Positions 1,518 to 21,233 of a DNA stretch of 51,287 bases are shown here, piece by piece. How positions within the stretch are numbered: position 1 is the stretch's first letter; the number at the start of each line of letters is the position of its first letter. The position numbers and the translations under genes were made by a program. Origin of the DNA: Cellulosimicrobium cellulans (lineage in GTDB: Bacteria > Actinomycetota > Actinomycetes > Actinomycetales > Cellulomonadaceae); the NCBI RefSeq assembly GCF_016921195.1, contig NZ_JAFGYF010000018.1, forward strand, positions 1-51,287, read 5' to 3'. Below the pieces are notes generated by a model. It was given only the letters and a program-made list of their open reading frames with translations, made no database searches and was not told the DNA's origin.

Positions 1518-2591
1518 TCAGGCGGCGCGGTCGGCGAGCGCCTCCGCGAAGGAGCGCAGGGCGTCGGTGACGGGGCCTGCGGGGAGCGCGTCGAGCTCCT
1601 CCACGGCGGAGCGCGCCCAGCGCACCGCGAGCGCCCGCGTCTCCCCGAGCACCTCGTGGCATCGCAGCGCGGCCACGGCCGCGGCGAGCGCGGCGTCGTC
1701 CGTGAGGTCCGAGTCGAGGAGCTCGACGAGACCCGCGTCCGCCTCGCTCGCCGTCCCGTTCGCGATCCGGGCGCGGAGCAGGAGGACGGGCATCGTCGGC
1801 ACCTTCTCGCGCAGGTCGGTACCCGGCGTCTTGCCGGACTCGTCACCCGAGGACGCGAGGTCCAGCACGTCGTCGGCGAGCTGGAACGCGACCCCGAGCT
1901 TCTCCCCGTAGGCGGCGACGGTGTCGACGACGTCGGCCGGGCACCCGGCGAACATCGCACCGAGCCGCGCGGACGTCGACAGGAGCGACGCCGTCTTGTC
2001 GGCGAGCACCTCGAGGTAGTGCTCGACGGGGTCGTCGCCCTCCTCCGGACCGATCGTCTCGTGGAGCTGGCCCAGGCACAGCCGCTCGAACGTCCTCGCC
2101 TGGATCAGCACGGCCTCCGGCCCGAGCGCGGCGACGGTCGACGCCGCGCGCGCGAAGAGCAGGTCGCCCACCATGATCGCGACGGAGTTCCCCCAGACGG
2201 CGTGCGCCGACGGAGCTCCCCGACGCACCGGAGCGGAGTCCATGACGTCGTCGTGGTACAGCGACGCGAGGTGCGTGAGCTCGACGACGACCGCGGACTC
2301 CACGACCTCCGGACGCGTCCCGTCCCCGAGCTCGGCGGCGAGCAGGGTGAGCAACGGCCGCAGCCTCTTGCCCCCCGCGTTGACGAGATGGCGGGACGCG
2401 GTGTCGGCGAGCGGGTCGGCGTGCGCGACGGCGTCGCGCAGCCGGGCCTCGACCCCGGCGAGCCGCTCGGTGAGGGCGGCCGCGAGCTCGGGGTCCGAGA
2501 TCGGGATCGCGGTGGTCGTCACGGGCGCGGTCCGGTCGCGCGGGCCGCGAGGCCCGGCGGGCACGGGCGGCACGGAAGGCACAGAGGTCAC
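1518..2591 (-). CDS. Long-chain polyprenyl diphosphate synthase (menaquinone side chain)
   Basis: Trans-isoprenyl diphosphate synthase of 357 residues, which condenses isopentenyl diphosphate onto allylic primers to make the polyprenyl tail that MenA attaches to the quinone ring. Visible are the GGKRLRP substrate loop (73-79), the first aspartate-rich motif DDVMD (114-118) and the second, DDVLD (240-244); these bind the Mg-diphosphate. The GTG start at 2591 overlaps the nuoN stop (GTGA), so it is the last gene of the nuo operon. The first 23 residues are Pro-rich and unlike the family; an in-frame GTG at 2522 would give a more typical N-terminus. Product chain length (hepta to nona) cannot be read from sequence. 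The context favours menaquinone rather than carotenoid synthesis. Confidence 0.9.
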   Translation of the reverse strand: MTSVPSVPPVPAGPRGPRDRTAPVTTTAIPISDPELAAALTERLAGVEARLRDAVAHADPLADTASRHLVNAGGKRLRPLLTLLAAELGDGTRPEVVESAVVVELTHLASLYHDDVMDSAPVRRGAPSAHAVWGNSVAIMVGDLLFARAASTVAALGPEAVLIQARTFERLCLGQLHETIGPEEGDDPVEHYLEVLADKTASLLSTSARLGAMFAGCPADVVDTVAAYGEKLGVAFQLADDVLDLASSGDESGKTPGTDLREKVPTMPVLLLRARIANGTASEADAGLVELLDSDLTDDAALAAAVAALRCHEVLGETRALAVRWARSAVEELDALPAGPVTDALRSFAEALADRAA

Positions 2592-4360
2592 GGGACGAAC
2601 TTAACCGCCTCGGCCGCCAGATCGAGAACCGGGGACGGGAACACACCGAGGAGGAGCACCCCGAGCGCGCACGCGGCGATCGCGATCGTCGTCGGGCCGG
2701 TCGACCGGACGACGGTCACTCCCGGTCCCTCGATCGCGCCGCCGTCGTCGCTCGCGTCATCCGCGGCCCCGCCTGCCGGGGCCGTGAAGAACATGAGCAC
2801 GATGATGCGGACGTAGAAGAACACGGCGACCGCGGAGGCGAGCACGCCGACCACGGCGAGCACCCACGTCGAGCCGCCACCCTGCCCGTCGGGCCCGGCG
2901 ATGGCCGCGCCGAACGCCGTGAACTTCGCCACGAACCCCGCGGTGAGCGGGATGCCCGCCATGGAGAGGAGGAAGAGGGAGAACGTGCCCGCGAGCCACG
3001 GGCTGCGGCGTCCGAGCCCCGCCCACTGCGCGAGGTGCGTCGCCTCCCCGAGCACGGCGACGGGCTGCTCCGTCGCCCCGTCCGTCACGTTGTCCGCGTC
3101 GGCTCCGTCCGACGCCCCCGCACCCACGGCCGCAGGCACGCGCTCGCGCACCGGCGCGGTCTCCCGCACCAGCGTGACGACGGCGAACGCGCCCACCGTC
3201 GCGAGGCCGTAGACGAGCAGGTAGAAGACCGTCGCGCGGAGGGAGAGCTGTGAGAACCCGACGACACCGACGAGGATGAAGCCCGCGTGCGCGATCGACG
3301 AGTAGGCGAGCAGGCGCTTGACGTCGGTCTGCACGGCACCGACGACGGTGCCGACGACCATCGTGAGCAGCGTGACGATCCACAGCGCGACGAAGAGGTC
3401 CTCGCGCGTCGCCAGGGACGACTGCGCGAGCCCGAGGCTCACGACGTACAGCACGCGCAGCAGCGCACCGAACGCCGCCGCCTTGGTGCACGCGGCCATG
3501 AAGCCGGTGATGGGCGTCGGGGCGCCCTGGTAGACGTCGGGGGTCCACGCGTGGAACGGCGCGGCGCCGATCTTGAACAGGAGTCCCGCGAGGATGAGCA
3601 GGACGCCGACGACGACGAGCCCGGGCATCGTGGCGAGCGGGCCCTCGGGTGCGGCGAGCGCCTGGAAGACCTCGACGAGGTCGACCGACCCGGCGAAGCC
3701 GTAGACGAGCGCGACGCCGAACACGAACAGCGCGGACGCGAACGCCCCGAGCAGGAAGTACTTGAACGACGCCTCCTGCGACAGGAGGCGACGGCGGCGG
3801 GCCATCGCCGAGAGCACGTAGAGCGGGAGCGAGAGCACCTCGAGCGCGACGAACATCACGAGGAGGTTGCCGGTCGCGGGGAAGATCATCATGCCGCCGA
3901 CGGCGAAGAGCACGAGCGGGTAGACCTCGGTCTGCTCGAGGCCCTTGCGCCGAGTGAGGTCCTCGTACGGAGAGCCGGGGACGGCCGCCGCCGAGGGCGC
4001 GAACGCGTCCTGCCCGGTGGACGTCCGGTCGGCGATGACGAGGATCGCGAGGAACGCGAGGAGGACGACGATCCCCTGGATCGCGAGCCCGAACGGGTCG
4101 ATCACCATCGACCCGCCGAGCACCCGCACCCCGTAGGGCGCGCCGTCGCTCCCCTGGACGGCCGGGTCCCGCCACAGCACGACGACGAGCGCGAACGCGG
4201 CGGCGGTCGCGAGCAGTGCGAGGACGACCTGCGTGGTCCGTCGCACGCGCGCCGGGACGAACGCCTCGATCAGCACACCGACGACGCCGGCACCCAGCAC
4301 GACGAGGATCGGGGCGAGGTAGAGCCAGTCGACCGTGGGGGCCACGAAGGAGTCGTTCAC
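2588..4360 (-). CDS. nuoN: NADH-quinone oxidoreductase subunit N
   Basis: Antiporter-like membrane subunit of complex I, 590 residues with about 14 hydrophobic helices. The proton-channel core is recognisable, including FKIGAAPFHAWTPDVYQGAPT and KRLLAYSSIAHAGF. Two hydrophilic insertions stand out: one after the third helix (TSTGQDAF to TRRKGLEQ) and one of about 45 residues before the last helices (VRERVPAAV to EATHLAQW), making it longer than the roughly 490 residues usual in proteobacteria. It overlaps nuoM by ATGA and is followed by the prenyl synthase through GTGA. Confidence 0.96.
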   Translation of the reverse strand: MNDSFVAPTVDWLYLAPILVVLGAGVVGVLIEAFVPARVRRTTQVVLALLATAAAFALVVVLWRDPAVQGSDGAPYGVRVLGGSMVIDPFGLAIQGIVVLLAFLAILVIADRTSTGQDAFAPSAAAVPGSPYEDLTRRKGLEQTEVYPLVLFAVGGMMIFPATGNLLVMFVALEVLSLPLYVLSAMARRRRLLSQEASFKYFLLGAFASALFVFGVALVYGFAGSVDLVEVFQALAAPEGPLATMPGLVVVGVLLILAGLLFKIGAAPFHAWTPDVYQGAPTPITGFMAACTKAAAFGALLRVLYVVSLGLAQSSLATREDLFVALWIVTLLTMVVGTVVGAVQTDVKRLLAYSSIAHAGFILVGVVGFSQLSLRATVFYLLVYGLATVGAFAVVTLVRETAPVRERVPAAVGAGASDGADADNVTDGATEQPVAVLGEATHLAQWAGLGRRSPWLAGTFSLFLLSMAGIPLTAGFVAKFTAFGAAIAGPDGQGGGSTWVLAVVGVLASAVAVFFYVRIIVLMFFTAPAGGAADDASDDGGAIEGPGVTVVRSTGPTTIAIAACALGVLLLGVFPSPVLDLAAEAVKFVP

Positions 4361-6027
4361 GACTCGCTCCCTTCGTCGGTGCTACGGGTGAGGGACGACC
4401 CCTGGCTCTCGAAGGCGACCAGCTCGGTCCCCCCGGCGAACGGGTCGGAGCGCGGCGGGTCCTCGACGCCGGCGACCGCGAGGTCGGACAGGGTGACCTC
4501 GGCGGGCTCGCGCACGAGGTCGAGCGCGGGAGCCGGGTAGAAGCCGAGGACCAGGAGGACGACGATCAGCGGCGCGACGACCCACTTCTCGCGCGCCCCG
4601 AGGTCCGGGAGCTGGTCCAGCCCTTCACGGGTGCTGCCCGTGAAGATCCGCTGGTAGGTCAGCAGCACGTAGAGCGCGGCGAGCACGACGCCGAGCACCG
4701 CGACGAGCGCGGCCCACGGGCTGCGCGCGAACGTCCCGACGAGGACCATGATCTCGCTGACGAATGTGGACAGGCCCGGCAGCGAGAGCGCGGACAGGCC
4801 GGCCACGAGGAACGTCCCCGCGAGCACCGGGACCACCTTCTGCAGGCCGCCGTAGTCCGCGATGCGCTGCGAGCGCTCCGGGTGCCGGGCGATGAGGAAG
4901 CCCGCGAGGAGGAACAGGGCCCCCGTCGAGATCCCGTGGTTGACCATGTACAGCGACGACCCGGACACGCTGAGCGACGTGAACGCGAAGATGCCGAGCA
5001 CGATGAACCCGAAGTGGGACACGGACGTGTAGGCGATGAGGCGCATGAGGTCGCTCTGCCCGATCGCCATGAGCGCGCCGTAGAGGATCGAGACCACGGC
5101 CAGCACGATCACGACCGGGGCCGCCCACGCGCTCGCGTGCGGGAAGAGCGGGAGGCACAGCGTGAGCATCCCGAACGTGCCGACCTTGTCCAGCACGCCC
5201 ACGAGGAGCGTGGAGGTGCCCGCGGGTGCGTGCTGCGCGGCGTCGGGCAGCCAGGTGTGGACGGGGAAGAGCGGCGCCTTGATGGCGAACGCGAGGAAGA
5301 ACCCGAGGAACAGCAGCCGCTCGGTCGTGACCGGCATCGGGTTCTCGGCGAAGTACCCCACGAGGTTCGACGTGAGGAACGCGTCCTCGGGGCGCGCGCC
5401 CGTCGCCGCGTCGATCGGCACCTGCACGTACAGCGCGATGACCGCCGCGAGCATGATCAGACCGCCCGCGAGCGAGAACAGCAGGAACTTCACCGCCGCG
5501 TAGCGTCGCCGCGCCCCGACCCCGAACCCGCCGATCATGAAGTAGACCGGGATCAGCATCGCCTCGAACAGCACGTAGAAGAGGAACACGTCGCGCGCGA
5601 CGAACACCGCGACCATGAAGGCCTCGAGCAGCAGCACGAGCGCGAGGTAGTGACGCAGGCGACGCACGTCGCCGTCCTGCTCCTTCCACCCGGCGAGCAC
5701 GACGAGCGGGACGAGCAGGACCGACAGCGCGACGAGCGCGAGCGCGACGCCGTCGGCGCCCACCGCGTAGCTCGCGCCGATCTGCGGGATCCAGGGGTAC
5801 GTCTCGGCGAGCTGGTGCGTGCCGGCCGCGGACGTGTCGAACGCGGTGAACGCGCCGACGAGCAGGCCCAGCTCGACGAGCGCGGCGCCGAGCGCGATGC
5901 CGCGCACGGCGCGCAGGGCGCCCGCGCCGACGCCGCGCGTGCGGGCCGCGGCCGTGAGCCACACCGCCGCGGCGCCGACGACGGGCCACGCGACGAGCAG
6001 GGACAGCCAGGGGACGGAGGTGGTCAT
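4357..6027 (-). CDS. nuoM: NADH-quinone oxidoreductase subunit M
   Basis: Second antiporter-like proton-pumping subunit, 556 residues. Recognised by the conserved loop FLAFAIKAPLFPVHTWLPDAA with the channel Lys, HAPAGTSTLLVGVLDKVGTFG, and the discontinuous helix DLMRLIAYTSVSHFGFI. A GGGAG lies 6 bases before the ATG. The C-terminal tail (about 30 residues after PAEVTL) is hydrophilic. It begins 13 bases after the nuoL stop and overlaps nuoN by 4 bases. Confidence 0.97.
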   Translation of the reverse strand: MTTSVPWLSLLVAWPVVGAAAVWLTAAARTRGVGAGALRAVRGIALGAALVELGLLVGAFTAFDTSAAGTHQLAETYPWIPQIGASYAVGADGVALALVALSVLLVPLVVLAGWKEQDGDVRRLRHYLALVLLLEAFMVAVFVARDVFLFYVLFEAMLIPVYFMIGGFGVGARRRYAAVKFLLFSLAGGLIMLAAVIALYVQVPIDAATGARPEDAFLTSNLVGYFAENPMPVTTERLLFLGFFLAFAIKAPLFPVHTWLPDAAQHAPAGTSTLLVGVLDKVGTFGMLTLCLPLFPHASAWAAPVVIVLAVVSILYGALMAIGQSDLMRLIAYTSVSHFGFIVLGIFAFTSLSVSGSSLYMVNHGISTGALFLLAGFLIARHPERSQRIADYGGLQKVVPVLAGTFLVAGLSALSLPGLSTFVSEIMVLVGTFARSPWAALVAVLGVVLAALYVLLTYQRIFTGSTREGLDQLPDLGAREKWVVAPLIVVLLVLGFYPAPALDLVREPAEVTLSDLAVAGVEDPPRSDPFAGGTELVAFESQGSSLTRSTDEGSES

Positions 6028-6040
6028 GGGTGTCTCCCTC

Positions 6041-8071
6041 TCAGCTCACGGAGCCGGTGGTCAGGGCGAGGACGACGGCGACGACCACCACGAGCCCGCC
6101 GAGCATCGTCGCGCCGTACGAGCGCACGTAGCCGTTCTGCCACCCGCGCAGCCACTCCCCCACCCGGCCGACGAGGCCCGCCAGGCCCATCCAGCCGCCG
6201 TCCACCATCTCCTTGTCGGCGTAGACGAGCGAGCGTGTGAGGTACTGGCCGGGGCGCATGAACACGGCCTCGTTGACGTCGTCCTGGTACAGGTCGCGAC
6301 GGGCGGCGCGCGTGAGCACCGAACCCCGCGGGGCGCGGACCGGGACGCTCGACATCGCGTACTGGCGCCACGCGAGGGCCGCGCCCGCGAGGACGAGCAG
6401 GAGCGTCAGGGTGATGAGCGACCACACCGGGAGCACGGGCTCGTGGTGCTCGGCGTGCCCGGTGACCGGCTCGAGCCACGTGACGAAGCGCGAGCCCGCG
6501 GCGAGGATGCCGCCCAGCGCGACCGACCCGACCGCGAGGACGATCATCGGCCACGTCATGAGGCGCGGGGACTCGTGCGGGTGCTGGACCGGGCCGTCCT
6601 GCGGGCCGAGCCCGTCCACGGAGCCGCTGCCGTCGTTCCAGCGGCGGCGCCCGGAGAACGTCATGAAGAACAGGCGCGACATGTAGAACGCGGTGATCCC
6701 GGCGCCGAGCAGCGCGACGCCGCCGAACACCCACGCCCGCCACGGCTCGCCGTCGACGGGGACGAACGCGGCCTCGATGATCTTGTCCTTGCTCCAGAAG
6801 CCGGAGAACGGCGGGATGCCGAGGATCGCGAGCCAGCCCATCATGAACGTGATCCACGTGACCTTCATGTACCGCGCGAGCCCGCCGAACCGACGCATGT
6901 CGACCTGGTCGTCCATGCCGTGCATGACGGACCCCGCCCCGAGGAACATGCCCGCCTTGAAGAAGCCGTGCGTCACGAGGTGGAAGATCGCGAACGCGTA
7001 GCCGATCGGTCCGAGCCCGGCGGCGAGGATCATGTAGCCGATCTGGGACATGGTCGACGCCGCGAGCGCCTTCTTGATGTCGTCCTTGGCGCAACCGACG
7101 ATCGCCCCGAAGAGCAGCGTCACCGCGCCGACGATCACCACGACGAGCTGGGCGGTGGGCGCGCCCTCGAAGATCGGTGCGGACCGCACGACGAGGTAGA
7201 CGCCCGCCGTGACCATGGTGGCGGCGTGGATGAGCGCGGAGACCGGCGTCGGGCCGGCCATCGCGTCCCCGAGCCAGGCCTGGAGGGGGAACTGCGCCGA
7301 CTTGCCGCAGGCCGCGAGCAGGAGCGCGATGCTCGTCGCGGTGAGCATCGCCGTCGACGCCTCAGGAGCCTCCGCGAACACCGTGGTGAAGTCGACCGCG
7401 CCGAACGTCGCGAACATGAGCATGAGCGCGACGATCAGGCCGATGTCGCCCACGCGGTTCATGACGAACGCCTTCTTGGCCGCGACGGCGTACGCGCGGT
7501 GGTGGTTCCAGAACCCGATGAGCAGGTACGACGCGAGGCCCACGCCCTCCCAGCCGACGAACAGCAGGAGGTAGGAGTCGGCGAGGACGAGCACGAGCAT
7601 GGCCGCGACGAACAGGTTGAGGTAGGCGAAGAACCGGCGCCGGTCGCGGTCGTGCGCCATGTAGGCGACCGCGTAGACGTGGATCAGCGTGCCGACGAAC
7701 GTCACGAGGAGCACGAACGTCAGGGACAGCGGGTCGATCCGCAGCCCGACGGCGAGGTCGAGGCCCCCCGAGACGATCCAGTCGAAGAGGCGGTAGTCCA
7801 CGACCCGCTCGTCCACGGGCAGGCCGAGCATCGCGACGAAGAGGACCAGCCCCACGACGAACGCCGCGCCGGACATGAGGACCCCGAACCACGCGCCCCA
7901 CCGGTCGCTGCGACGCCCGGCGAGCAGGAGGACGGCTGCCCCGAGGAGCGGGAGCAGCACGAGGAACGGTGCCGCGAGGAACGCGCCCGGCACGGTCTCG
8001 GACGCGGGCACGACGTCGGTCGCGGCCAGCAGTCCGCTCGCCGTGGGCAGGGCGGGAAGGAGCGTCGTCAT
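6041..8071 (-). CDS. nuoL: NADH-quinone oxidoreductase subunit L
   Basis: Largest antiporter-like subunit, 676 residues, which also forms the long lateral helix along the membrane arm. Typical segments are [49 protein letters not shown] and [15 protein letters not shown]. The C-terminal part after the antiporter fold ([18 protein letters not shown], then a last helix) anchors the lateral helix. The start has a GAGGGG upstream. It follows nuoK by 13 bases. Confidence 0.97.
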
Positions 8072-8084
8072 CGGTGCCGGCCCC

Positions 8085-8384
8085 TCAGCTCTTGAGCAGG
8101 TTGACGTCGTCGACCGAGGCGGACCGACGGGTGCGGAAGATGGACACGATGATCGCGAGGCCGACGACGACCTCCGCCGCCGCGACGACCATGACGAAGA
8201 ACGCGAGCACCTGCCCGGTCACGTCGCCGTGCATCCGGGCGAAGGTGACGAACGCGAGGTTGGTCGCGTTGAGCATGAGCTCGACGCCCATGAACACGAT
8301 GATCGCGTTGCGTCGCAGCAGCACGGTCGCGGCGCCGATCGAGAAGAGGATCGCCGCGAGCACGAGGTAGTTGGTGAGCTCCAT
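8085..8384 (-). CDS. nuoK: NADH-quinone oxidoreductase subunit K
   Basis: Small three-helix membrane subunit, 99 residues, the normal family length. The two conserved membrane Glu residues are visible in [12 protein letters not shown] and in [15 protein letters not shown], where they form the central proton path. A strong GGAGGAGAGG lies before the ATG, which overlaps the nuoJ stop. Confidence 0.97.
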
Positions 8385-9349
8385 CAGTCCTCTCCTCCCC
8401 GGTTTCCTCCCGGGGTGGCTTCCGGGTTCGCGTCCGCGGGGCCGCCGGGCACGCGAGACCGGCCCGGGTCGTCCGGACCGGAGACGTCGCCCGCGGGCGC
8501 CTCGCCCTCCGGCTGGTCGGCGGTCGCCGTCTGCACCGTGCGCTCGTTCGCGTCCTGGGCCCGCAGCGCGGGCAGCGCTCGCAGCGGCTCGTGCTCGACG
8601 AGCACCTCGCGCTCGGCCTCGAGGATCGTCCCCGCCGAGCGCTCCTGGCCGCGGATGCGCAGGATGCGCGAGACCGACTCCTCGATGGGACGGCCCTGCG
8701 GGTCGAGCGCCGGGGTGTCCATGGCGTTGTTCTGCGCGTACACGCCGGGCGCGGCGAGCGGCGTGAGCCGGCCGCCCGAGGGCAGGGCCGCGACCTTCGC
8801 GTCCGCCTGCTCGCGCTGGCCGACCTTCGGGGTGAGGCGGCGCCGGTGCGTGAGCACGAGCGCCGAGACCGCGGCGGTGATGAGCAGGATGCCCACGACC
8901 TCCATCGCGAACACGTAGTCGGCGAAGAGCACCCGCGCGAGCGCGACCGGGTTCGTCACCGCGTTCGCGGCCTCGAGGCCGACCGCGGGCGGGAACGCCG
9001 CCTGCGAGACGACGCCCACCAGCACGGCCCCGAGGCCGAGCCCCAGCAGCACGCCGATCCAGCGCTGGCCGCGGATCGTCTCGACGAGCGAGTCCGACGC
9101 GTCGACGCCGACGAGCATGAGCACGAAGAGGAAGAGCATCATCACGGCGCCCGTGTAGACGACCACCTGCACGACGCCGAGGAACGACGCCTCCTGCGCG
9201 ATGTAGAGGATCGCGAGGTCGACCATGACGAACATGACCGCGATGGCGGCGTGCACCGCCTTGCGCGCGAAGAGCAGCGAGAGCGCCGCGAGGACCATGA
9301 GGGGGGCGAGGACCCAGAAGAGGACCGCCTCGCCGCCGCTCGCGGTCAC
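8384..9349 (-). CDS. nuoJ: NADH-quinone oxidoreductase subunit J with a long soluble tail
   Basis: Five-helix membrane subunit; the GTG start at 9349 overlaps the nuoI stop (GTGA) and gives 321 residues. The conserved third helix [23 protein letters not shown] carries the segment that bends during turnover in known complex I structures. After the fifth helix (about residue 180) there is a hydrophilic tail of about 130 residues with charged, Ala/Glu-rich sequence ending in Gly/Pro/Asp-rich residues ([20 protein letters not shown]). E. coli NuoJ is 184 residues, so the tail is extra. Similar tails occur in other Actinobacteria; its role is unknown. Confidence 0.95.
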
Positions 9350-10077
9350 CGGGCGGCCTTCCGGGCCGACGGGCGCGCGGACCGCCCGGACGGCTGGGCG
9401 ACCCGCCGGACCTCCGGGGGCGGCCCCGTGGGCTCGGGAGGGAGCGTCGGGTCGTCCGGACGGTGCTCGCGCACCCACTCCACCTGCTCGGCCACCGGGC
9501 CGTTCACCTCCCCGCGGTAGTACTCGGTGTCCGACGTCCCGGGCACCATCGGGTGCGGCGCGGCGAGCATCCCCTCGCGCAGCGGCGCGAGGAGGTCCTG
9601 CTTCTCCCAGATCATGCCCTCGCGCGTCGGCCCGGCGAGCTCGTACTCGTTGGTCATCGTCAGCGCGCGTGTCGGGCACGCCTCGATGCACAGCCCGCAG
9701 AAGATGCAGCGCAGGTAGTTGATCTGGTAGACGCGCCCGTACCGCTCGCCCGGCGACATGTGGCCGCCGTCGGGGAGGTCGGCGTTGTCCGCGCCCTCGA
9801 CGTAGATCGCGTCCGCGGGGCACGCCCACGCGCACAGCTCGCACCCGATGCACTTCTCGAGCCCGTCGGCGTACCGGTTGAGCTGGTGCCGGCCGTGGTA
9901 GCGCGGCTTCGTCGGCACCTTCTGGCGCGGGTACTGCTCGGTGACCGTCGGGCGGAACATCGAGGCGAAGGTGACGCCGAACCCGGCGACGGGCGCGAGC
10001 GCCTCCCGCAGGCCCTTCGCCTGGGGGCGCCGGACCTCGTACTCGCCGGGCCGGTCCGGCTTCTGGTCGTCAGCCAC
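9346..10077 (-). CDS. nuoI: NADH-quinone oxidoreductase subunit I (two 4Fe-4S clusters)
   Basis: Peripheral-arm subunit that carries clusters N6a and N6b towards the quinone site. Two ferredoxin motifs are complete: C76, C79, C82 and C86 ([11 protein letters not shown]), and C124, C127, C130 and C134 ([11 protein letters not shown]). The start chosen is GTG 10077 ([11 protein letters not shown]), 6 bases after AAGGAGG, and overlaps the nuoH end by 8 bases; the frame is open further upstream but that part is nuoH in another frame. The C-terminus after residue 200 is an extra Pro/Arg-rich tail. Confidence 0.96.
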
Positions 10078-11467
10078 GGTCGACCTCCTTGTCGTGGGGC
10101 GTTCGAGGTGTCCCGGACGTCCCGGGCGATCCCGCGTCGTCGGGCACGAGGGCGCGACGGCGCGGCGAGGGCGGGAGCGACTGCCCGGGCAGCGGCGGGA
10201 CGGGGAACCCGCCCGCGAACGCGTCGAACGGCTCGGGCCCGGTGCCCGCGGCGCCGGGTGCCGCACCGGGCGGCGCCTTCTTCTCGGGCCAGAACCACAC
10301 GACGACGACCACCACGAGGGCGAGCGCGACGGCGATGCCGACGAAGACGCGGAGGTCGACCTCGAGGAACTGGCGCACGGCCTGCGCGACGGCCAGCAGC
10401 ACGAGCCACGCGAGCGCGAACGGGATGAGGACCTTCCAGCCGAAGCGCATGAACTGGTCGTAGCGCAGGCGCAGGAGCGTGCCGCGCACCCACACGAAGA
10501 AGAACATGACGGCCCAGACCTTGACGAGGAACCAGAGGATGGGCCACCAGCCCTCGTTGAACATCCCGTCGTTGATCGCGGACAGCGGCCACGGGGCGCG
10601 CCACCCGCCGAGGAACAGCGTCGTGGCGACCGCGGAGACGTTGAGCATGTTGATGTACTCCGCGAGGAAGAACCACGCGAACTTCATCGACGAGTACTCG
10701 GTCATGTACCCCGACACGAGCTCGCCCTCGGCCTCGGGGAGGTCGAACGGCAGGCGGTTCGTCTCGCCGACCATGGAGATGACGTAGATGACGAACGCCG
10801 GCAGGAGCGGGAGGAACCACCACAGCTGCGTCTGCGAGTCGACGATGCGCGACGTCGACATCGACCCCGCCATGAGGAACACCGAGACGAGCGACAGGCC
10901 CATCGCGAGCTCGTAGCTGATGACCTGGGCCGTCGAGCGGACGGACCCGAGCAGCGGGTACGTCGACCCGGACGACCAGCCGCCGAGCACGATGCCGTAC
11001 ACGCCGAGCGACGCGCACGCGAGGATGTAGAGCGTCGCGACGGGGAAGTCGGTGAGCTGGGCGGGCGTCACGTAGTCCGTGAACGGGATCTGCACCTCGG
11101 GCCCGAACGGGATGACCGCGAACACGAGCAGCGCGCAGAACACGGAGATCATCGGCGCGAGGAGGTAGACGAACTTGTCCGCCGCCTTGACGGTGATGTC
11201 CTCCTTGAGCAGGAGCTTCATCGCGTCGGCGAGCGACTGGAGCAGGCCGAACGGGCCGTGCCAGTTGGGGCCGGGCCGCACCTGCATGCGCGCGACGACC
11301 TTGCGCTCGAACCAGATGGCGAACAGCACGCTCGTCAGCAGGAACACGAGGATGAGGACGGCCTTGACGAGGTACGTCCACCCGGTGTCCTGCGAGAAGT
11401 TCGCCGTGATCCCGGGCACGCCCGGCGTCTCGGCAGCGAGCGCGTGGATCGCGTGGACGCCGCTCAT
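10070..11467 (-). CDS. nuoH: NADH-quinone oxidoreductase subunit H
   Basis: Membrane subunit at the joint between the arms that forms most of the quinone cavity, 465 residues. The family core is clear: [33 protein letters not shown] and the acidic loop [19 protein letters not shown], which faces the quinone channel. The ATG at 11467 overlaps the nuoG stop (ATGA). The C-terminus is extended by about 80 residues, Pro-rich and basic, after the last helix [12 protein letters not shown]. Confidence 0.96.
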
Positions 11468-14154
11468 GCGCCCTCCCCTCGGTCGGTGCTCACGGTCTCG
11501 AGGCGGACCACGTCGCCCGGCACCGCGCCGAGCGTCGCGTGCACGGACGAGCCCGGCGAGCGCAGGGGCAGCCACACGACGTGGTCGACCATGTCCGTCA
11601 CGACGACAGGGAGCGTGATCGCGCCCCGGTCCGTCGAGACGCGCACGACGTCGCCGTCGAACACGTCGGCAGCGGCCGCGGTCGCCGCGGACAGCCGCGC
11701 CACGGGTCGCTTCGCCGTCCCGGCGAGGTAGCGCTCGCCGTCCTGGCCGCGCGCGTCGTCGAGCAGGAGCCGCCAGCTCGCGAGGACCGCGGTCCCCGGC
11801 GCGACGGCGGGCGGCTCCGTGGTCTCGACGTCCGGCGCGGCGGCGCGCTCGCCGTCCCACGCGCCGTCGCCCACGAGCTGGTCGAGCTCGGCGCGCACCG
11901 CGTCCACGGTCGGCAGGCCGAGCGGCACGCCCGCGGCGTCGGCCAGGGCGTCGAGCACGCGGTGGTCCGGCATGGCCGTGGACGCGAGCGCCGCCGGGAA
12001 CGGACGCACGCGCCCCTCCCAGCTCACGTACGCCCCGGCCCGCTCCACGGGCGGCGCGACCGGGAGCACGACGTCGGCGAGCTCCGTGACCGCCGAGCGC
12101 CGCACCTCGAGCGAGACGACGACGTCCGCCGCCTCGAGCGCGCGACGCGCGTGCGCCGGGTCGGGCAGGTCGTCGAGCTCGAGCCCGCCGACGAGCGCGC
12201 CCGCGAGCTGACCGACCGACAGCGCGTCGAGCATCTCCCCGACGTCCCGGCCCGCGGTCGCGGGCAGCCCGGCGGCCCCGTCCTCCGTGGCGGCCACGCC
12301 CCAGACGGTCGCGACGTCCACGCGGGCCGCGGCGTCGGCGACCGGGCGACCGCCCGGCAGGAGGTTCGGCAGGGTGCCGGCCTCGACGCCGCCGCGCTCG
12401 CCGGCGCGGCGCGGGACCCACGCGAGGCGCGCCCCCGTCGCGGCGACCGCGCGCAGCAGCGCGCTGTACCCGCCGCGCGTCGCGGCGAGCCGCTCGCCGA
12501 CGAGGATCACGGCGCCCGGCGCCCGGAGGGCGTCGCTCACGTCGGCGAGGAGGTCGGTGCCCTCCGCCTCGTCGAGCGTGCGGACCTGGTCGCCGGCGGC
12601 GATGCCGTCGAGCCACTCCGCCTCGGTGCCCGGCGCGGCCGGGAGGAGCGTGCCGTGCATGCGCTGCACGCCGCGCGAGGCGAACGGCGCGACGGAGAAC
12701 ACCCGCACGCCGTGCCGCAGCGCCCCCTTGCGCAGGCGCAGGAACGTCACGCCGGCCTCCTCCTCGGCCTCGAGGCCGACGAGCAGGACGGCGGGCGCCT
12801 TCTCGAGGTCGGTGAACGTCACCCCGCCGGGGTGGCCGACGGCGCGACCCGCGACGGCGTGCGCGAGGAAGTCCGCCTCCTCGGCGCTGTGGACGCGGGC
12901 GCGGTGGTCGACGTCGTTCGTGCGCAGCCACGTGCGCGCGAGCTTGGCGTACGCGTACGCGTCCTCGAGCGTGAGGCGCCCGCCCGGCAGGACCGCGACG
13001 CCCCCGGCGTCGCGTGCGCGCGTCAGGGCGTCCGCCGCGACCTCGAGCGCCTCGGCCCACGAGGCGGGGCGCAGCTCGCCGCGCGACACCGTCCCGTCCG
13101 GGGCGACCTCGCGGTCGCGCACGAGCGGGTGCGTGAGGCGGTCCGGCGCCGACTGCCAGGTGAACGCGAAGCGGTCGCGGTCGGTGATCCACTCCTCGTT
13201 GACCAGCGGGTCCTCGCCCGCGAGGCGGCGCAGCACGACGCCGCGACGGTGGTCGACGCGGATCGCCGACCCGGACGAGTCGTGCTCGGCGACCGACGGC
13301 GTCGAGACGAGGTCGAACGGGCGAGACCGGAACCGGTACGCGGCACCCGTGAGCGCGCCGACCGGGCAGATCTGCACGGTGTTGCCGGAGAAGTAGGACG
13401 CGAACGGCAGGCCCGACTCGTCCTCGAGCGCGAGCCCGACCGGGCGGTCGCCCGGCGCCTGCCCCGCGGGCGGGGCGAAGTCCAGCACCGCCTCGTCGAA
13501 GCGGCCGATCTGCTGCGCGGCACCGCGCTTCTGCAGGTCGATGAACGCGTCGCCCGCGATCTCCTGCGAGAAGCGCGTGCAGCGCTGGCACAGGACGCAG
13601 CGCTCGCGGTCGAGCAGGATCGTCGTCGAGACCGCGATCGGCTTGGGGAACGTGCGCTTGACGTCGACGAACCGGCTGGTCGCGCGGCCGTTGCTCATCG
13701 CCTGGTTCTGCAGCGGGCACTCGCCGCCCTTGTCGCACACCGGGCAGTCGAGCGGGTGGTTGATGAGCAGCAGCTCCATGATCCCGTGCTGTGCCTTGTC
13801 GGCGACGGGGCTCGTGCGCTGGGTCTTCACCACCATGCCCGGCGTCGCCTCGAGCGTGCACGACGCCTGCGGCTTGGCCATGGGCCGGACGTTGCCCTCG
13901 CGGTCCGGCGTCGCCACCTCGACGAGGCACTGGCGGCACGCGCCCGCGGGCTCGAGCAGCGGGTGGTCGCAGAACCGCGGGATCTGGATCCCGATCTGCT
14001 CGGCCGCGCGGATCACGAGCGTGCCCTTCGGCACGGACATCTCGACGTCGTCGATCGTGAACGTCACGTGGTCCGCGGGGACCGGTGGCTTGGCCGCGCC
14101 ACCCGTGGGTGCGGCTGCCGAGCCGGTGCCCGCGGCGGGGGTCGTGGTCGTCAT
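11464..14154 (-). CDS. nuoG: NADH-quinone oxidoreductase subunit G, cluster N7 ligands missing
   Basis: Largest peripheral subunit, 896 residues from ATG 14154, which overlaps the nuoF stop by one base. N-terminal 2Fe-2S ligands are C62, C73, C76 and C99; the N5 ligands are H133, C137, C140 and C146; the N4 ligands are C186, C189, C192 and C263. A molybdopterin-oxidoreductase-like domain without cofactor follows from about 285. In the segment that normally binds cluster N7 (residues 288-325) the frame of the motif remains (STPSV-EH, HRRG, LAGEDP, NEEW), but every Cys is replaced (VAEHD, SGS, WIT). This protein should therefore carry three clusters, not four. The first 28 residues are an Ala/Thr/Pro-rich extension. 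Confidence 0.96.
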
Positions 14155-15521
14155 CAGTGCACTCCTGCGGTCAGGACGCGGGCCGGGCGGGGCGTGTAGT
14201 CGAAGAGGGCCGAGGCCGCCGGGTCGAACGGGCAGCGGTGCTCCGTGATGTGCGCCTCGTACTCGTCGCGGAACAGCTCGATGCTGCTCGTCACGGGCGA
14301 CGTGGCGCCGTCGCCGAGCGCGCAGAACGCGCGGCCCAGGATGTTGTCGCACGTGTCGAGGAGGAGGTCGAGGTCCGCCTCCGTGCCCTGGCCCGCCTCG
14401 ATGCGTGCCAGCACCTGCTTCATCCAGTACGTGCCCTCGCGGCACGGCGTGCACTTGCCGCACGACTCGTGCGCGTAGAAGTCCGTCCACCGGCTCACGG
14501 CCCGCACGACGCACGTCGTGGAGTCGAAGAGCTGCAGCGCGCGCGTGCCGAGCATCGAGCCGGCCGCCGCGACCGACTCGTAGTCGAGGGGCGTGTCGAG
14601 GTGGGCGTCGGTGAACAGCGGCGTCGACGAGCCGCCCGGCGTCCAGAACTTCAGCGCCTTGCCACCGCGCATCCCGCCCGCGAGGTCCAGGAGCTCGCGC
14701 AGCGTCGTGCCGAGCGGCGCCTCGTACTGGCCGGGACGCGTCACGTGACCCGAGAGCGAGAACAGGCCGAACCCCGCCGAGCGCTCCGTGCCCATCGACG
14801 TGAACCAGTCCGCGCCGCGCGCGACGATCGACGGCACGCTCGCGATGGACTCCACGTTGTTGACGACCGTCGGGCGCGCGTACAGGCCCGCGACCGCGGG
14901 GAACGGCGGCTTGAGCCGCGGCTGCCCGCGGCGGCCCTCGAGCGAGTCGAGCAGCGCCGTCTCCTCGCCGCAGATGTACGCGCCCGCGCCGGCGTGGACC
15001 GTGACGTCGAGGTCGAAGCCGGAGCCCTGGATGTCCGTGCCGAGGTACCCGGCCTCGTACGCCTCCTCGACCGCGCGCAGCAGCCGGCGGTACACGTGCA
15101 GCACCTCGCCGCGCACGTAGATGAACGCGTGGCGGCACCCGATCGCGTACGACGTGATCGCCACCCCCTCCACGAGCGCCTGCGGGCTCGCGAGCATGAG
15201 CGGGATGTCCTTGCACGTGCCCGGCTCGGACTCGTCCGCGTTGACGACCAGGTACCGCGGGCCGCCGTCGGGCGCGGGCAGGAAGCCCCACTTCATGCCC
15301 GTGGGGAACCCGGCGCCGCCACGGCCGCGCAGGCCCGACGCCTTGACCGTCGCGACGACGTCACCGGGCTCCTGCCCCAGCGCCGCGCGCAGGCCCGCGT
15401 AGCCGCCGCGGTCCAGGTAGGACGCGAGCGTCCAGGACCGGTCCGCGTCCCACGTGTCCGACAGGACCGGGGTCAGCGGGTCCGGCGCCGGGCGGGTCTC
15501 GGTGCTCTGCTGCTCGCTCAT
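14154..15521 (-). CDS. nuoF: NADH-quinone oxidoreductase subunit F (NADH and FMN site)
   Basis: Binds NADH, FMN and cluster N3. The Gly-rich nucleotide segment [16 protein letters not shown] (64-78), [12 protein letters not shown] (94-105) and [14 protein letters not shown] are all present. N3 ligands are C354, C357, C360 (ESCGKCTPC) and C400. The ATG at 15521 overlaps the nuoE stop (ATGA), giving 455 residues, the usual length plus a short N-terminal extension. Confidence 0.97.
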
Positions 15522-16414
15522 GCGTCCGCTCCCTTCGACGGGTCGGGCTTGGTGCCGGGCGACTCGGCCTTGCCGCCGGGGTCGACGTCGGCGTCGGTCG
15601 TCGCCTCGCGGTCGGCGCTCGACTGCTCGCCGCCCGTCACGGGCTTCTCGGGAGCCGGCTCGCCTGCCGGGGTAGAGGCCTGGTCCGACGAGGTGGAGGC
15701 CTGGTCGGTGGTGGGGGCGGTCCAGCCGTGCTCGCGCGCGAGGCGCAGCCCGGCGAGGGTGGGCTCGCCCGCGCCGACGCCCTCGTCGGCGCGACCGTCG
15801 GGGAAGCCCGCGAGGACGCGGCTCATCTGCTTGAAGGTGCACACGCTCGCGGCGCCGCGGGTGGGGGCGACGGGCTCGCCCGCGCGGAGGCGGTCGACGA
15901 CGTCCGTCGCGCTCGCGGGGGTCTGGTTGTCGAAGAACTCCCAGTTGACCATCATCACGGGCGCGTAGTCGCAGGCCGCGTTGCACTCGACGCGCTCGAG
16001 CGTGATCGCGCCGTCCTCGGTGGTCTCGTCGTGCCCGACGCCGAGGTGCTCCGACAGCTCGTCGAAGATGGCGTCGCCGCCCATGATCGCGCACAACGTG
16101 TTCGTGCAGACGCCCACGGTGTAGGTGCCGTTGGGGTGGCGCTTGTACTGCGTGTAGAACGTCGCGACGGCGGAGACCTCCGCCGCGGTGAGGCCGAGCT
16201 GCTCGGCGCAGAACAGGATGCCGTCGCGCGAGACGTAGCCGTCCTCGGACTGCACGAGGTGCAGCATCGGCAGCAGCGCCGAGCGCGACTCGGGGTAGCG
16301 CGCGACGATCTGCGCGGCGTCGGCGGCGAGGCGCGCCGTCGTCTCCGCGTCGTACCCGGGGCGCGGCCCGCCGGCGGGCGCGCCGTTCGTCGCAGGTCCG
16401 GCGTCGATGGTCAT
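15518..16414 (-). CDS. nuoE: NADH-quinone oxidoreductase subunit E with a repetitive C-terminal tail
   Basis: Thioredoxin-fold subunit with 2Fe-2S cluster N1a, ligands C103, C108, C144 and C148. It starts at ATG 16414, overlapping nuoD (ATGA). The catalytic domain ends near residue 215; the last 70-80 residues are Ser, Thr, Glu, Asp and Pro-rich with an imperfect repeat ([13 protein letters not shown]) and look disordered. Total length is 298, against about 165 in E. coli. A shorter second conserved block ([16 protein letters not shown]) is common in actinobacterial NuoE. Confidence 0.96.
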
Positions 16415-17790
16415 CGGTCCACCCCTCCCAGCACGGGGTCCAGCGAGGCGACGGCGACCACGACGTCGGCCACCTGGCCGCCCTCGCACATCGCCGCCAC
16501 GGCCTGGAGGTTGTTGAACGACGGGTCGCGGAAGTGCGCCCGGTAGGGGCGCGTGCCGCCGTCGGACACGAGGTGCACCCCGAGCTCGCCGCGTGGGTGC
16601 TCCACGGTCTGCCATGCCTGCCCGACCGGGACGCGGAAGCCCTCGGTGACGAGCTTGAAGTGGTGGATCAGGGCCTCCATGGAGGTGCCCATGATCTCCT
16701 TGATGTGCTCGAGCGAGTTGCCCTGACCGTCGCTCCCGATCGCCAGCTGCGCGGGCCACGCGATCTTGCGGTCGCCCACCATGACGGGCTGCCCGGCCGT
16801 CACCTCGAGGCGCTCGAGGCACTGCGCGACGATGTGCAGCGACTGGTAGCACTCCTCGAGCCGGAGCACGACGCGGTCGTAGCAGTCGGCGCCCGTCGAG
16901 GTCGGCACGTCGAAGTCGTACGTCTCGTAGCCGCAGTACGGGTCGGCCTTGCGCACGTCGTACGGGTGGCCGGTCGAGCGCAGCACGGGACCGGTGACGC
17001 CGAGCGCCATGCAGCCCGCGAGGTTGAGGTGCCCGACGCCGACGAGGCGGCCCTTGAAGATCGGGTTGGCGAGCATGAGGTCGCCGAGCTGGCCGAGGTA
17101 CCGCCGGATGAGCGGGTCGGCCTTGCGGACCTGCTCGACGAGGTCGGGTGGCACGTCCTGCGCGACGCCGCCGGGCCGCACGTACGCGTTGTTCATGCGC
17201 AGGCCCGTGACGGCCTCGAAGATCCGCAGGATCTCCTCGCGCGCGGTGAACGCGACGGTCATGACGGTCGTCGCGCCCATCTCGTTGCCGCCGGTGCCCA
17301 GGCACACGAGGTGGGACGCGATCCGGTTGAGCTCCATCATGAGCACCCGGATGACGCTCGCCCGCTCGGGGACGTCGTCCGTGATGCCCAGGAGCTTCTC
17401 GACCGCGAGGCAGTACGCCGTCTCCTGGAACAGCGGCGCGAGGTAGTCCATGCGGGTGCAGAACGTGACGCCCTGCGTCCACGTCCGGTACTCCATGTTC
17501 TTCTCGATGCCGGTGTGCAGGTAGCCGATGCCGCACCGCGCCTCGGTGACGGTCTCGCCGTCGATCTCGAGCATGAGGCGGAGCACGCCGTGCGTGGACG
17601 GGTGCTGCGGGCCCATGTTGACGACGATGCGCTCCTCGCCGAGCGCGGCCGCGGCGACGGCGCTCTCGGCGACGTCCGCCCAGTCGCCGCCCGACGCCTC
17701 GAAGCTCGGGACGCCCTGGTCGAAGTCGCCCACGGGCGGCTTCGTGGCGTGCGGGGCGGCGCCAGGGGCGCCCGTGGTGTGCGTGCTCAC
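16411..17790 (-). CDS. nuoD: NADH-quinone oxidoreductase subunit D
   Basis: 49-kDa-type subunit derived from the large subunit of NiFe hydrogenases; it lines the quinone head-group site. The signature [14 protein letters not shown] (His and the surrounding quinone-site loop) lies near residue 54. Further blocks are [16 protein letters not shown] and [17 protein letters not shown]. The GTG at 17790 is preceded by GAGGAGG 8 bases upstream and overlaps the nuoC stop; the longer frame upstream is the nuoC coding region in another frame. 459 residues. Confidence 0.97.
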
Positions 17791-18560
17791 GAGTACGACC
17801 TCCTCGTGTCGGGCGGGGGCACGGTCGCGCCCTTGTACTCGACGGGGATCCCGCCGAGCGGGTAGTCCTTGCGCTGCGGGTGGCCCGGCCAGTCGTCGGG
17901 CATCTCGATGCGCGCGAGCGACGGGTGCCCGTCGAAGACGATCCCGAAGAAGTCCCACGTCTCACGCTCGTGCCAGTCGTTCGTCGGGTAGACGGACGTC
18001 GTGGTCGGCACGTGGGGATCGGCGTCGGGCACCGACACCTCGAGCCGCAGCCGCCGGCCGTGGGTGATCGACGTCAGGTGGTAGACGGCGTGCAGCTCGC
18101 GGCCCACGTCGTGCGGGAAGTGCACGCCGCTCACGCCGAGGCTCAGCTCGAACCGCAGGTCCTGGTCGTCGCGCAGCGCTCGGCACACGTCGACGAGGTG
18201 GTCGCGGTGCACGTGGATCGTCAGCTCGGCGTGCGGGCCGGGCGGGTCCACGACGACGCGCTCCACCGCGGCCTCGAAGCGCGTGCCCTGCTCGGCCAGC
18301 ACCTCGGCCAGCACGTCGACGACCTCGTCGAACCACCCTCCGTAGGGGCGCGGGCTCGCGCCGGGCATCGCGACGGGCTGGACCAGCCCGCCGTACCCGG
18401 ACGTGTCGCCCGAGCCGCGGACGCCGAACATGCCCTCGCGGACCTCGACGACCTCGAGCGTGCGCGGCGCGCCGGCCCCGGTCACCAGGTCGCCCGACCG
18501 CGGGCCGTTGACCTCCTCGGGCTGCGGCACGGGCGTGCCGCCGCTCTTCTCGTCCGTCAC
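17787..18560 (-). CDS. nuoC: NADH-quinone oxidoreductase subunit C
   Basis: 30-kDa-type subunit that docks on NuoD and NuoB. The family signature [19 protein letters not shown] and the C-terminal [11 protein letters not shown] are present. The GTG at 18560 overlaps the nuoB stop and gives 257 residues. The first 80 residues are an actinobacterial extension (VTDEKSGG, then [10 protein letters not shown]) without counterpart in E. coli. Confidence 0.96.
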
Positions 18561-19108
18561 CGCAGCAGCCCCTTCATCTGGAACGTGGGCGTCGCCTCCA
18601 GCGCGGCCGCCTCGGCGGCGCGCGCCGCCTCCTTGCGGTTCACGCCGAGCGGCTCGTGCTGGATCTGCTCGTGCAGAGCGAGGATCGCGTTGATGAGCAT
18701 CTCCGGCCGCGGCGGGCAGCCCGGCAGGTAGATGTCCACGGGCACGATGTGGTCGACACCCTGCACGATCGCGTAGTTGTTGAACATGCCGCCGCTGGAC
18801 GCGCACACGCCCATCGACAGCACCCACTTGGGCTCGCTCATCTGGTCGTAGACCTGCCGCACGACCGGGGCCATCTTCTGGCTCACGCGCCCGGCGACGA
18901 TCATGAGGTCCGCCTGCCGCGGCGAGGCACGGAAGACCTCCATGCCGAAGCGCGACAGGTCGAACCGCGACGCCCCGGCCGCCATCATCTCGATGGCGCA
19001 GCACGCCAGCCCGAACGTCACGGGCCACAGCGACGCCTTGCGCAGGTACCCCGCGAGGTCCTCGATCGTGGTCAGCAAGAAGCCCGAGGGAGCTTCCTCG
19101 ATCCCCAT
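18557..19108 (-). CDS. nuoB: NADH-quinone oxidoreductase subunit B (cluster N2)
   Basis: Carries the terminal 4Fe-4S cluster N2 that reduces quinone. All four ligands are seen: the adjacent pair C36 and C37 (LACCAIE), C102 (GVCASSGG) and C131 (LPGCPPRP). 183 residues; AGGAG lies before the ATG. A 44-base gap separates it from nuoA, the largest gap inside the nuo genes proper. Confidence 0.98.
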
Positions 19109-19621: not shown

Positions 19622-20998
19622 TCATGACGATGGCACCACCCTCGTCAGCCCCGCGATGACGCGGTCGACCCAGTCGCCTCCGCGGGGCTCGTAGCAGTCG
19701 GACAGGAGCTTGAGGACGAACCGCATGACGACCGGGCGCGGGAGCCCGTAGCGCGTGCAGATCCGCATGATCTCGGGGTGCTCGATGAGCTTCACGAAGT
19801 ACCTGCCGAGCGTGTAGTAGCCGCCGAGCTCGCGGCGCATGATCCGCGGGTACGTCTGGAGCGCGCGCTCACGGCCCGAGTCGGTGAGACGCACGCGCGA
19901 CTGCGCGACGACGTCGGCCGCCGCCCGCCCGGCCTGCATCGCGTACGCGATGCCCTCGCCGTTGAACGGGCTCACCATGCCGCCCGAGTCGCCCACGAGG
20001 AGCACGCCGCGCGTGTACAGCGGCGTGCGGTTGAAGCCCATGGGCAGCGCCGCGCCGCGCACCGGGGCGAGCCGGTTCTCCTCCGTGAACTCCCACTCGG
20101 CGGGCGCGTTGCGCATCCACGTGGCGAAGAGGTCCTTGTAGTCGACGTTGGCCGCGGACTGGCGCGCGGGCGTCGAGCTCACCGAGCCGAGGCCGACGTT
20201 CGCCGTGCCGTCGCCGAGCGAGAAGATCCATCCGTAGCCCGGCAGGAGGTTCGACTCGCGGGGCGTGCCCTCCCACAGCTCGAGGTGGGACTCCATCCAC
20301 GGGTCGTCGTGGCGGGGCGTGCGGAAGTAGGTGCGGACGGCGACGCCGATCGGGCGGTCCTCGCGCCGCGCGAGGCCGAGCGCGAGCGCGAAGCGCGACG
20401 AGACGCCGTCGGCGGCGATGACGACGGGCGCGCGGTACGTGACCTCTTCTCCGGCGCGCCGGCCCTTCTCGTCCACGGGGCGCGCGGTCACGCCGACGAC
20501 GCGGCCCGTGCGCTCGTCGAGGACGGGACCGGTGACGGCCGTGCGCTCGAGCAGCTTGGCGCCCGTGCGCTGCGCGTGCTCGGCGAGCGTGCGGTCGAAC
20601 GAGTGGCGCGCGCGGGCCATGCCGTAGCTCGGGTACGACGCGAGGTCCGGCCACGCGAGCTCCCAGGAGCGGCCGCTCGCGACGACGCGCAGCCCGCGGT
20701 TGCGGATCCAGCCGTCCTCGGCGCGCGTGGGGACGCCCATGCGCACGAGCTCCGCCACGGCACGCGGCGTCAGGCCGTCGCCGCAGATCTTGTCGCGGGG
20801 GAACGAGGACTTCTCGAGCAGGAGGACGCTCAGCCCGGCCGCGGCGCAGTAGTGGGCTGCCGCAGAGCCTGCCGGACCCGCACCGACGACGATGACGTCG
20901 GCGTCGTCGAGCCTCGCGCCCACCGTGCTCACCTCACCGTCCGGTCGTCGGGTCACCTCGTGGTGGTCCACCGTGCCCCGGGCTGGGACACGGCGCAT
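19622..20998 (-). CDS. Geranylgeranyl reductase family flavoprotein, probable menaquinone tail reductase (MenJ-like)
   Basis: FAD-dependent reductase of 458 residues. It has the dinucleotide fold VIVVGAGPAGSAAA near residue 35, the family segment KICGDGLTPRAV, and the second FAD motif GDSGGMVSPFNGEGIAYAM. Relatives saturate isoprenoid double bonds in archaeal lipids, phytyl chains, or menaquinone tails (MenJ in mycobacteria). Position at the head of the nuo operon and near the men genes favours menaquinone, by inference. The ATG at 20998 has AAGGA 6 bases upstream; an in-frame GTG at 20932 (VSTVGARLDDAD) is a shorter option with a weak ribosome site. A Rex-like operator lies 10-27 bases upstream. 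Confidence 0.88.
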   Translation of the reverse strand: MRRVPARGTVDHHEVTRRPDGEVSTVGARLDDADVIVVGAGPAGSAAAHYCAAAGLSVLLLEKSSFPRDKICGDGLTPRAVAELVRMGVPTRAEDGWIRNRGLRVVASGRSWELAWPDLASYPSYGMARARHSFDRTLAEHAQRTGAKLLERTAVTGPVLDERTGRVVGVTARPVDEKGRRAGEEVTYRAPVVIAADGVSSRFALALGLARREDRPIGVAVRTYFRTPRHDDPWMESHLELWEGTPRESNLLPGYGWIFSLGDGTANVGLGSVSSTPARQSAANVDYKDLFATWMRNAPAEWEFTEENRLAPVRGAALPMGFNRTPLYTRGVLLVGDSGGMVSPFNGEGIAYAMQAGRAAADVVAQSRVRLTDSGRERALQTYPRIMRRELGGYYTLGRYFVKLIEHPEIMRICTRYGLPRPVVMRFVLKLLSDCYEPRGGDWVDRVIAGLTRVVPSS

Positions 20999-21007
20999 CC
21001 ACGGTCC

Positions 21008-21025
21008 TTGTGAAGTCGGTCACAA
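21008..21025. promoter_or_regulatory. Candidate Rex operator for the GGR-nuo operon
   Basis: TTGTGA, six bases, TCACAA: a perfect 6-bp inverted repeat with 18-bp total length. Rex operators have the published form TTGTGAA-N4-TTCACAA, and in Streptomyces TGTGAAC-N3-TTCACA; this site keeps the outer six bases of both arms and the seventh on one side. It lies between the probable start of transcription and the first gene, where binding would block transcription when NADH/NAD+ is low. A rex gene is in this window. Confidence 0.72.
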
Positions 21026-21036
21026 TGGACATCGCC

Positions 21037-21042
21037 ACTCTA
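21037..21042 (-). promoter_or_regulatory. Possible -10 box of the GGR-nuo operon
   Basis: TAGAGT on the minus strand, about 12 bases before the Rex-like site, so transcription would begin just ahead of the operator. No good -35 was found at 17-18 bases. Confidence 0.35.
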
Positions 21043-21233
21043 GTCACTCCCGGCGCGAGATGTGTAGCAAGGTGACCCTTCCCTGGGAGATCCTGTGACG
21101 AAGGTCCTCCCGTGCGCCGGCTCCCGACCCTGTGGCTCGGGACGACCGGGCAAGGGTGCCGGCCGCCCGATCGCCTAGCCTCCCGCGCGTCCGCCCCGGC
21201 TCCCGGCTGCCCGCTCCCCGACGTCGCCGCAGG

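Follow-up and report, generated by a model that had tools for sequence, protein, structure and literature searches.

A predicted Rex operator precedes the geranylgeranyl reductase-complex I-prenyl synthase operon of Cellulosimicrobium cellulans and is widespread at this place in its class

In Streptomyces avermitilis, Rex represses nuoA1-N1 in an NADH-sensitive manner, and its site before nuoA1, which lies between the -35 and -10 elements, has been footprinted with DNase I (accessible text of PMC5355995). According to the same text, the cydA1 site of this species lies downstream of the transcription start, with protection from -3 to +25, and the Rex targets it names include pflBA and adhE, with a reference given also for S. 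aureus. Since the action of Rex on nuo is published for S. avermitilis, the core idea is already known. Iron enters through another described system: at the nuo promoter of Saccharopolyspora erythraea, a single dimer of IdeR binds with an apparent KD of 102 nM, and TTAGGNNNNCCTAA was proposed as consensus (available parts of PMC8464063). There, IdeR contacts C1, C2 and T3 of each CCTAA; changing A4A5 lowers its affinity (apparent KD 128 nM) without abolishing it, and sequences with only T3 and one C left are unbound (PMC8464063). A 2023 review, in the part available, lists as open questions the role of IdeR at one-dimer half-sites and the way in which IdeR activates certain genes (PMC10317159). 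Finally, geranylgeranyl reductase lies beside nuoA in Actinomyces oris, where transposon hits in the two genes, 163 bp apart, gave the same phenotype class, CS-2; Rex is absent from the accessible text of that paper (PMC5478893).

In the open literature searched, a scope within which subscription papers mostly do not fall, no paper joins Rex, menaquinone and geranylgeranyl reductase, and combinations of geranylgeranyl reductase, nuoA, menaquinone and Rex gave no paper that joins the reductase and Rex. Among the matches listed for IdeR, nuo, complex I, iron and Rex, the two papers on IdeR at nuo do not mention Rex. Rex together with menJ led to a menaquinone paper in which Rex is the name of a resin (PMC6461227), and IdeR, nuo and Rex together led to PMC11250799, in which Rex is the name of an author.

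The window, that is the whole stretch of 51,287 nucleotides from C. cellulans that we analysed, carries a 16-gene minus-strand operon that begins with a geranylgeranyl reductase family gene (GGR), continues with nuoA to nuoN and closes with a gene of the polyprenyl diphosphate synthase family (Table 1). The original prediction had proposed a respiratory operon of this size with rex 28 kb away in the same window, and matches to family profiles across GGR, nuoA-N and the prenyl synthase, together with a rex match above its cut-off, bear out both points. GGR is 97-99% identical to the GGR of Cellulosimicrobium cellulans and C. funkei. It passed TIGR02032 but, at 244.5 bits, missed the equivalog cut-off of 700 for MenJ menaquinone reductase (NF045655). 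Similarly, the prenyl synthase passed none of the equivalogs for long-chain polyprenyl diphosphate synthases, the best being NF042417 with 299 bits for a cut-off of 600. The rex gene is the only match of the genome to PF06971, the Rex DNA-binding domain, and its product matches by sequence solved Rex structures such as 5zz5, 3ikv and 2vt2.

Table 1. Features of the window, with the match or observation behind each assignment.
Feature	Position	Strand	Basis or remark
GGR, geranylgeranyl reductase family (putative quinone side-chain reductase)	19622..20932	-	TIGR02032 245.5 bits, cut-off 158.8
nuoA	19515-19153	-	NCBIfam
nuoB	19108-18557	-	NCBIfam
nuoC to nuoN	2588..18563	-	NCBIfam matches
polyprenyl diphosphate synthase family	1518..2591	-	prenyl synthase family matches, none above a curated cut-off
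rex	49755-49081	-	NF003992 326.5 bits, cut-off 226
Rex operator (predicted)	21008..21025	-	TTGTGACCGACTTCACAA, putatively +6 to +23; exact motif, family conservation, 15/18 match to a footprinted site
-10 element TAGAGT	21037..21042	-	conserved in upstream regions
-35 element TACACA (CAGACA in other genera), 18-bp spacer	21061..21066	-	conserved block; putative assignment
Second conserved dyad AAGGGTCACCTT, candidate IdeR/DtxR half-site	21069..21080	-	putatively -50 to -39, adjoins the -35 element

Upstream of GGR lies the palindrome TTGTGAAGTCGGTCACAA on the forward strand, which reads TTGTGACCGACTTCACAA on the strand of the operon. It has the exact 18-bp length of the Rex operator consensus TTGTGAANNNNTTCACAA, an inverted repeat, and matches all 12 of its outer bases, as had been claimed from the sequence for the outer six bases of both arms. 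The palindrome is thus real, but its arms are not fully symmetric: one of them is TTGTGAC instead of TTGTGAA, so that the site departs from the consensus at one inner base, the C at position 7. Compared with the footprinted S. avermitilis nuoA1 site (PMC5355995, accessible text), which shows the same departure at one inner base, the site is identical at 15 of 18 bases; regulator family and target operon are the same, and the 18-bp site nearly so. What differs is the layout, since here the site stands before GGR, which heads the operon, and downstream of the putative transcription start; in this respect it resembles the S. avermitilis cydA1 site (PMC5355995).

Scanning the window gave this palindrome as the sole exact copy of the motif, and three matches with up to three mismatches when 2.27 were expected. 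Across the 4.58-Mb genome, TTGTGAN6TCACAA occurs exactly four times and 26 times with up to two mismatches, compared to 0 and 3 for the reversed control. The genome-wide search that had been proposed as a check thus returned four exact copies, all before genes expected of a Rex regulon: the GGR-nuo operon, pflBA, adhE and cydAB. The site at cydAB faces a divergent RNase E-like ORF as well. The same Rex probably also governs cydAB (cytochrome bd), pflBA (pyruvate formate-lyase) and AdhE in this organism. A fifth near-match with one mismatch (C1:398047, L016) was dismissed as a Rex target: it overlaps the start of a 190-aa ORF, which has no NCBIfam match and lies near a quinone-oxidoreductase-like ORF.

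The original prediction had named as its refutation a repeat that is not conserved upstream of this operon in related genomes. We looked for the site in 121 genomes of the family, of which 101 carry rex and 110 carry GGR. In total, 109 loci were read, 108 of them with an intact upstream region; the counts leave out G108 and L140 (G101), both with a truncated GGR locus. In rex-bearing genomes, a site with at most two mismatches precedes GGR-nuo in 99 of 99 cases (62 exact, 23 with one mismatch and 14 with two), compared to 0.65% expected from Markov-resampled upstream regions, and nuoA comes after GGR in all 99. In the nine readable genomes without rex, the best sites have 2, 2, 3, 4, 4, 4, 4, 4 and 5 mismatches, so none reaches one mismatch or fewer and two stand at two. 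Five of these nine have nuoA behind GGR (G001 with 3 mismatches, G022 and G081 with 4, G061 and G086 with 2), and the last two do not differ in this from 14 of the rex-bearing genomes. The contig of G026 stops behind GGR, and in G010, G035 and G052 no nuoA was found behind it; the absence of the site in these four may reflect gene order.

A similar picture emerged for whole genomes, the exact motif being present somewhere in 68 of 101 rex-bearing genomes and in 2 of 20 without rex (reversed control 8 of 121). A Fisher test on the co-occurrence of site and rex in the family ignores kinship. On the GGR tree, rex changes five times and the site follows in four contrasts, opposes in none and ties in one (p 0.125), a design in which fewer than six differing pairs cannot reach 0.05 and in which one contrast is likely the confounded group of G010. 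Altogether, the operator appears to be mostly lost where rex is lost.

In part of one genus of the family (g25), rex seems to be decaying. G025 has a TGA inside its rex match and G061 and G086 are without rex; the operators have two mismatches in G025, G045, G061 and G086 and are exact in the rex-bearing G075 and G096. We also noted that 11 family genomes have no GGR match (E 1e-60). Ten of them are also without rex (G004, G012, G015, G029, G039, G046, G062, G080, G114 and G120), three of which, G062, G114 and G120, are only 72-81% complete; the exception, G017, has rex.

At the level of the class, 108 genomes including our own were sampled, with a GGR match in 86 and rex in 91, and 80 loci from 78 genomes were read. 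Not counted are L297 of G124, whose start is missing, and the GGR hits of G218, G194, G199, G151, G202, G227 and G200, which are distant or truncated. When GGR lies directly before nuoA in a genome with rex and its start is intact, the site was found in 59 of 64 loci, across 26 of 27 families (8 with no mismatch, 35 with one and 16 with two), and was missing in the other five. The repeat is thus kept upstream of GGR-nuo in relatives at both family and class level. Positions 7 and 12 are not scored in the motif; among the 45 distinct class sites, the former is A in all 45 and the latter is T in 44, which amounts to the full Rex consensus. In our own family one arm is relaxed relative to this sample, with A at position 7 in only 22 of 46 distinct sites.

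None of the 11 class loci that showed no nuoA behind GGR carries the site. These loci come from 10 genomes, since G159 counts twice, and include L298, a second GGR copy of G150, L300, a distant copy (37% identity), and L270, which lies near a contig end. The family f22, from which six genomes of 7-10 Mb were sampled, showed neither nuoA behind GGR nor a site before GGR in any of the seven loci read. Among four class loci with GGR before nuoA and no rex, a one-mismatch site is kept in three (G187, G196 and G189); as these genomes are 76, 73 and 94% complete, rex may be missing from their assemblies. In another family (f23: L222, L229, L233, L235, L252 and L263), the Rex site has a conserved block of type TAAATCYGCAGGTCAG on its upstream side.

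The CRP consensus is TGTGAN6TCACA. Because the core of the palindrome fits it exactly, we had to decide between Rex and a CRP/GlxR (cAMP receptor) site. The genome encodes one Crp-family domain and contains the TGTGAN6TCACA core with other flanks, and the CRP-type motif without the outer T/A is found in 92 of 101 rex-bearing and 17 of 20 rex-less genomes of the family. However, we found a Crp-family domain in all 20 family genomes tested (10 without and 10 with rex), including 10 of 10 without rex, yet seven of the nine readable rex-less loci have 3-5 mismatches; a PF00325 match does not prove that each of these regulators is a CRP orthologue, and four of the nine have no proven nuoA behind GGR, which limits this test of persistence. 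Moreover, the outer T/A and, at class level, the inner A7/T12 are conserved as in Rex operators, and the remaining exact sites of the genome are at typical Rex targets. The Crp-family domain persists in genomes from which both rex and, mostly, the site have gone; this disfavours a CRP/GlxR site, which we consider very improbable. The palindrome is very probably a Rex operator.

Even less credit is due to the reading that the palindrome matches by chance or has a structural role in the mRNA leader. The palindrome does lie within the putative leader and could self-pair. Against this, the reversed pattern has no exact match in the genome, the site occurs in 26 families with a variable centre, and it is mostly lost with rex. 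With a reversed control of 0, 99 of 99 sites in the family and 59 of 64 in the class, we rejected a chance origin.

The promoter was deduced from an alignment of 14 upstream regions (our own and 13 of the 108 others) and a listing of 40. A simple sigma-70 scan of 19400 to 21300 called no promoter and so missed the main one too, and the -35/-10 assignment therefore rests on conservation. From these elements, we infer a transcription start near 21030, which would place the operator at about +6 to +23. The longest frame of GGR opens at ATG 20998. Because conservation is poor between 20998 and 20932, and this stretch varies in length so that the frame changes between species and is broken in some relatives, the true start is most likely GTG 20932. 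The operator would therefore end about 75 bp before the likely start codon, so the position that had been proposed for it, between the likely transcription start and the first gene, agrees with the predicted layout.

Whether Rex would control the whole operon depends on the extent of the transcript. The same scan of 19400 to 21300 found no terminator-like site between GGR and nuoA, nuoM overlaps nuoN and nuoN overlaps the prenyl synthase gene by 4 bp each, and in 7 of the 99 family loci with rex an ATGA overlap joins GGR to nuoA, which favours their co-expression. The predicted control of the operon as one unit, presumably from a single GGR-nuo-prenyl synthase transcript, is thus supported by the order of the genes, by their overlaps and by the missing terminator-like site in the GGR-nuoA interval. 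Rex could instead act on GGR alone, with nuo driven by its own promoter in the 106-bp GGR-nuoA gap. This gap is larger than the 44 bp between nuoA and nuoB, a terminator-like pattern is found at 19101-19084, at the start of nuoB (one of five such patterns found when 2.5 were expected), and Rex of S. avermitilis works directly before nuoA1 (accessible text of PMC5355995). In addition, three class loci of one family (L251, L260 and L268; f20) have an exact site before GGR plus a Rex-like site with two mismatches inside the GGR-nuoA gap. On the other hand, 19400-21300 contains neither a promoter-like nor a terminator-like site in a scan that missed the main promoter as well, GGR and nuoA overlap in the seven loci mentioned above, and Rex sites before GGR were found only at loci where nuoA comes after GGR. 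A separate nuo promoter therefore seems unlikely to us, and control of the entire operon remains the preferred reading.

Rex autoregulates in S. avermitilis, whereas no site with up to three mismatches was found near rex in our window. Between 24879 and 45356, the window carries menaquinone-type genes (menG and genes for a chorismate-binding enzyme, UbiA and an AMP-binding enzyme) together with genes for cytochrome c assembly (ResB, CcsA-like); at the same threshold, this region is also without a Rex site.

Next to the -35 element lies a second dyad. Of the 99 rex-bearing family loci, 80 have its core, AGGNNNNCCT, at a distance of 40-48 bp upstream from the operator, compared to 0-9 of 99 for seven control dyads and three other spacings; the test was framed after the alignment had been seen, which makes these counts, drawn from related sequences, post hoc. 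The core occurs in 17 of 18 genera counted, being absent from g9 (0/6) and partial in g20 (2/9), g6 (3/5) and g8 (6/10). Outside the family, it was found in 4 of 62 class loci, with 0-1 for six control patterns. Among six rex-less genomes looked at, the exact core is kept in five (G001, G026, G061, G081 and G086, not G022), and in G001 and G026 the box is followed by a -10 element and no Rex site.

This core is shared with the IdeR half-site upstream of the complex I genes of S. erythraea (PMC8464063, available parts), whereas the outer bases differ in our window, the box is conserved mainly in our own family and it is paired with a Rex operator. Indeed, the window box (GAAGG...CCTTG) differs from the full TTAGGNNNNCCTAA at all four outer bases and retains C1, C2 and T3 of either arm. 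Within the family, 55 of 99 loci come within three mismatches of TTAGGNNNNCCTAA; the expectation is 14%, and control patterns reach 11-12 of 99. An iron-box pattern that requires A/T at the outer bases matched 34 of the 99 loci with rex and 4 of the 9 without, and the counts of the core were used in its place. Genome-wide, perfect iron-box palindromes number one exact and two with one mismatch, and the reversed control gives five; since perfect boxes are rare, such matching alone is no support for IdeR, which comes from positional conservation. An iron-box-like site precedes a gene for a siderophore-interacting protein in the genome (L303). Using rough hallmark patterns, we found no match to ideR in 140 kb of contig C21, in the window or in some other loci; the 140-kb stretch, around lexA-nrdR, was chosen by synteny. 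A perfect TTAGGTCGACCTAA lies between the lexA and nrdR genes (L301:1501-1514; G000:C21:140574).

If IdeR binds it, the candidate box, centred near -44.5, would be at an activator-like position beside the -35 element. The promoter may thus combine NADH and iron, one IdeR dimer near -44.5 signalling iron sufficiency and Rex downstream signalling NADH, a possibility to which we give somewhat less than an even chance. Because the core of the half-site persists in five of the six rex-less genomes looked at, the iron and NADH inputs would form modules that can be separated from each other.

Taking the comparisons together, the palindrome is best explained as a Rex operator that closely follows the promoter driving the GGR-nuoA-N-prenyl synthase operon, with a probability of about 0.88. 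When the NADH/NAD+ ratio is low, a Rex dimer would occupy about +6 to +23 and block initiation or promoter escape; when NADH accumulates, Rex would be released, allowing more complex I and more of the enzymes making and saturating the quinone tail. Binding, repression and release by NADH are here taken over by analogy from Streptomyces (PMC5355995, accessible text), and this mechanism in C. cellulans is deduced from it. Judged from sequence, the locus appears to be a confirmed member of the known Rex regulon in a variant layout. What seems new is that a predicted Rex operator precedes the gene of a putative quinone-tail reductase and is widespread there, and that a second dyad, resembling a one-dimer IdeR half-site, is kept beside the -35 element in most family members.

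Rex control of complex I would thus be widespread in the class and, by the order of the genes, tied to the enzymes of the quinone side chain. With its fixed and activator-like place beside the Rex operator, the conserved half-site-like box would make both open IdeR questions testable in soil actinobacteria. If IdeR indeed acts there, its input would report the iron supply for the many Fe-S clusters of complex I, and complex I and the quinone tail would be built only when iron and reductant are both at hand.
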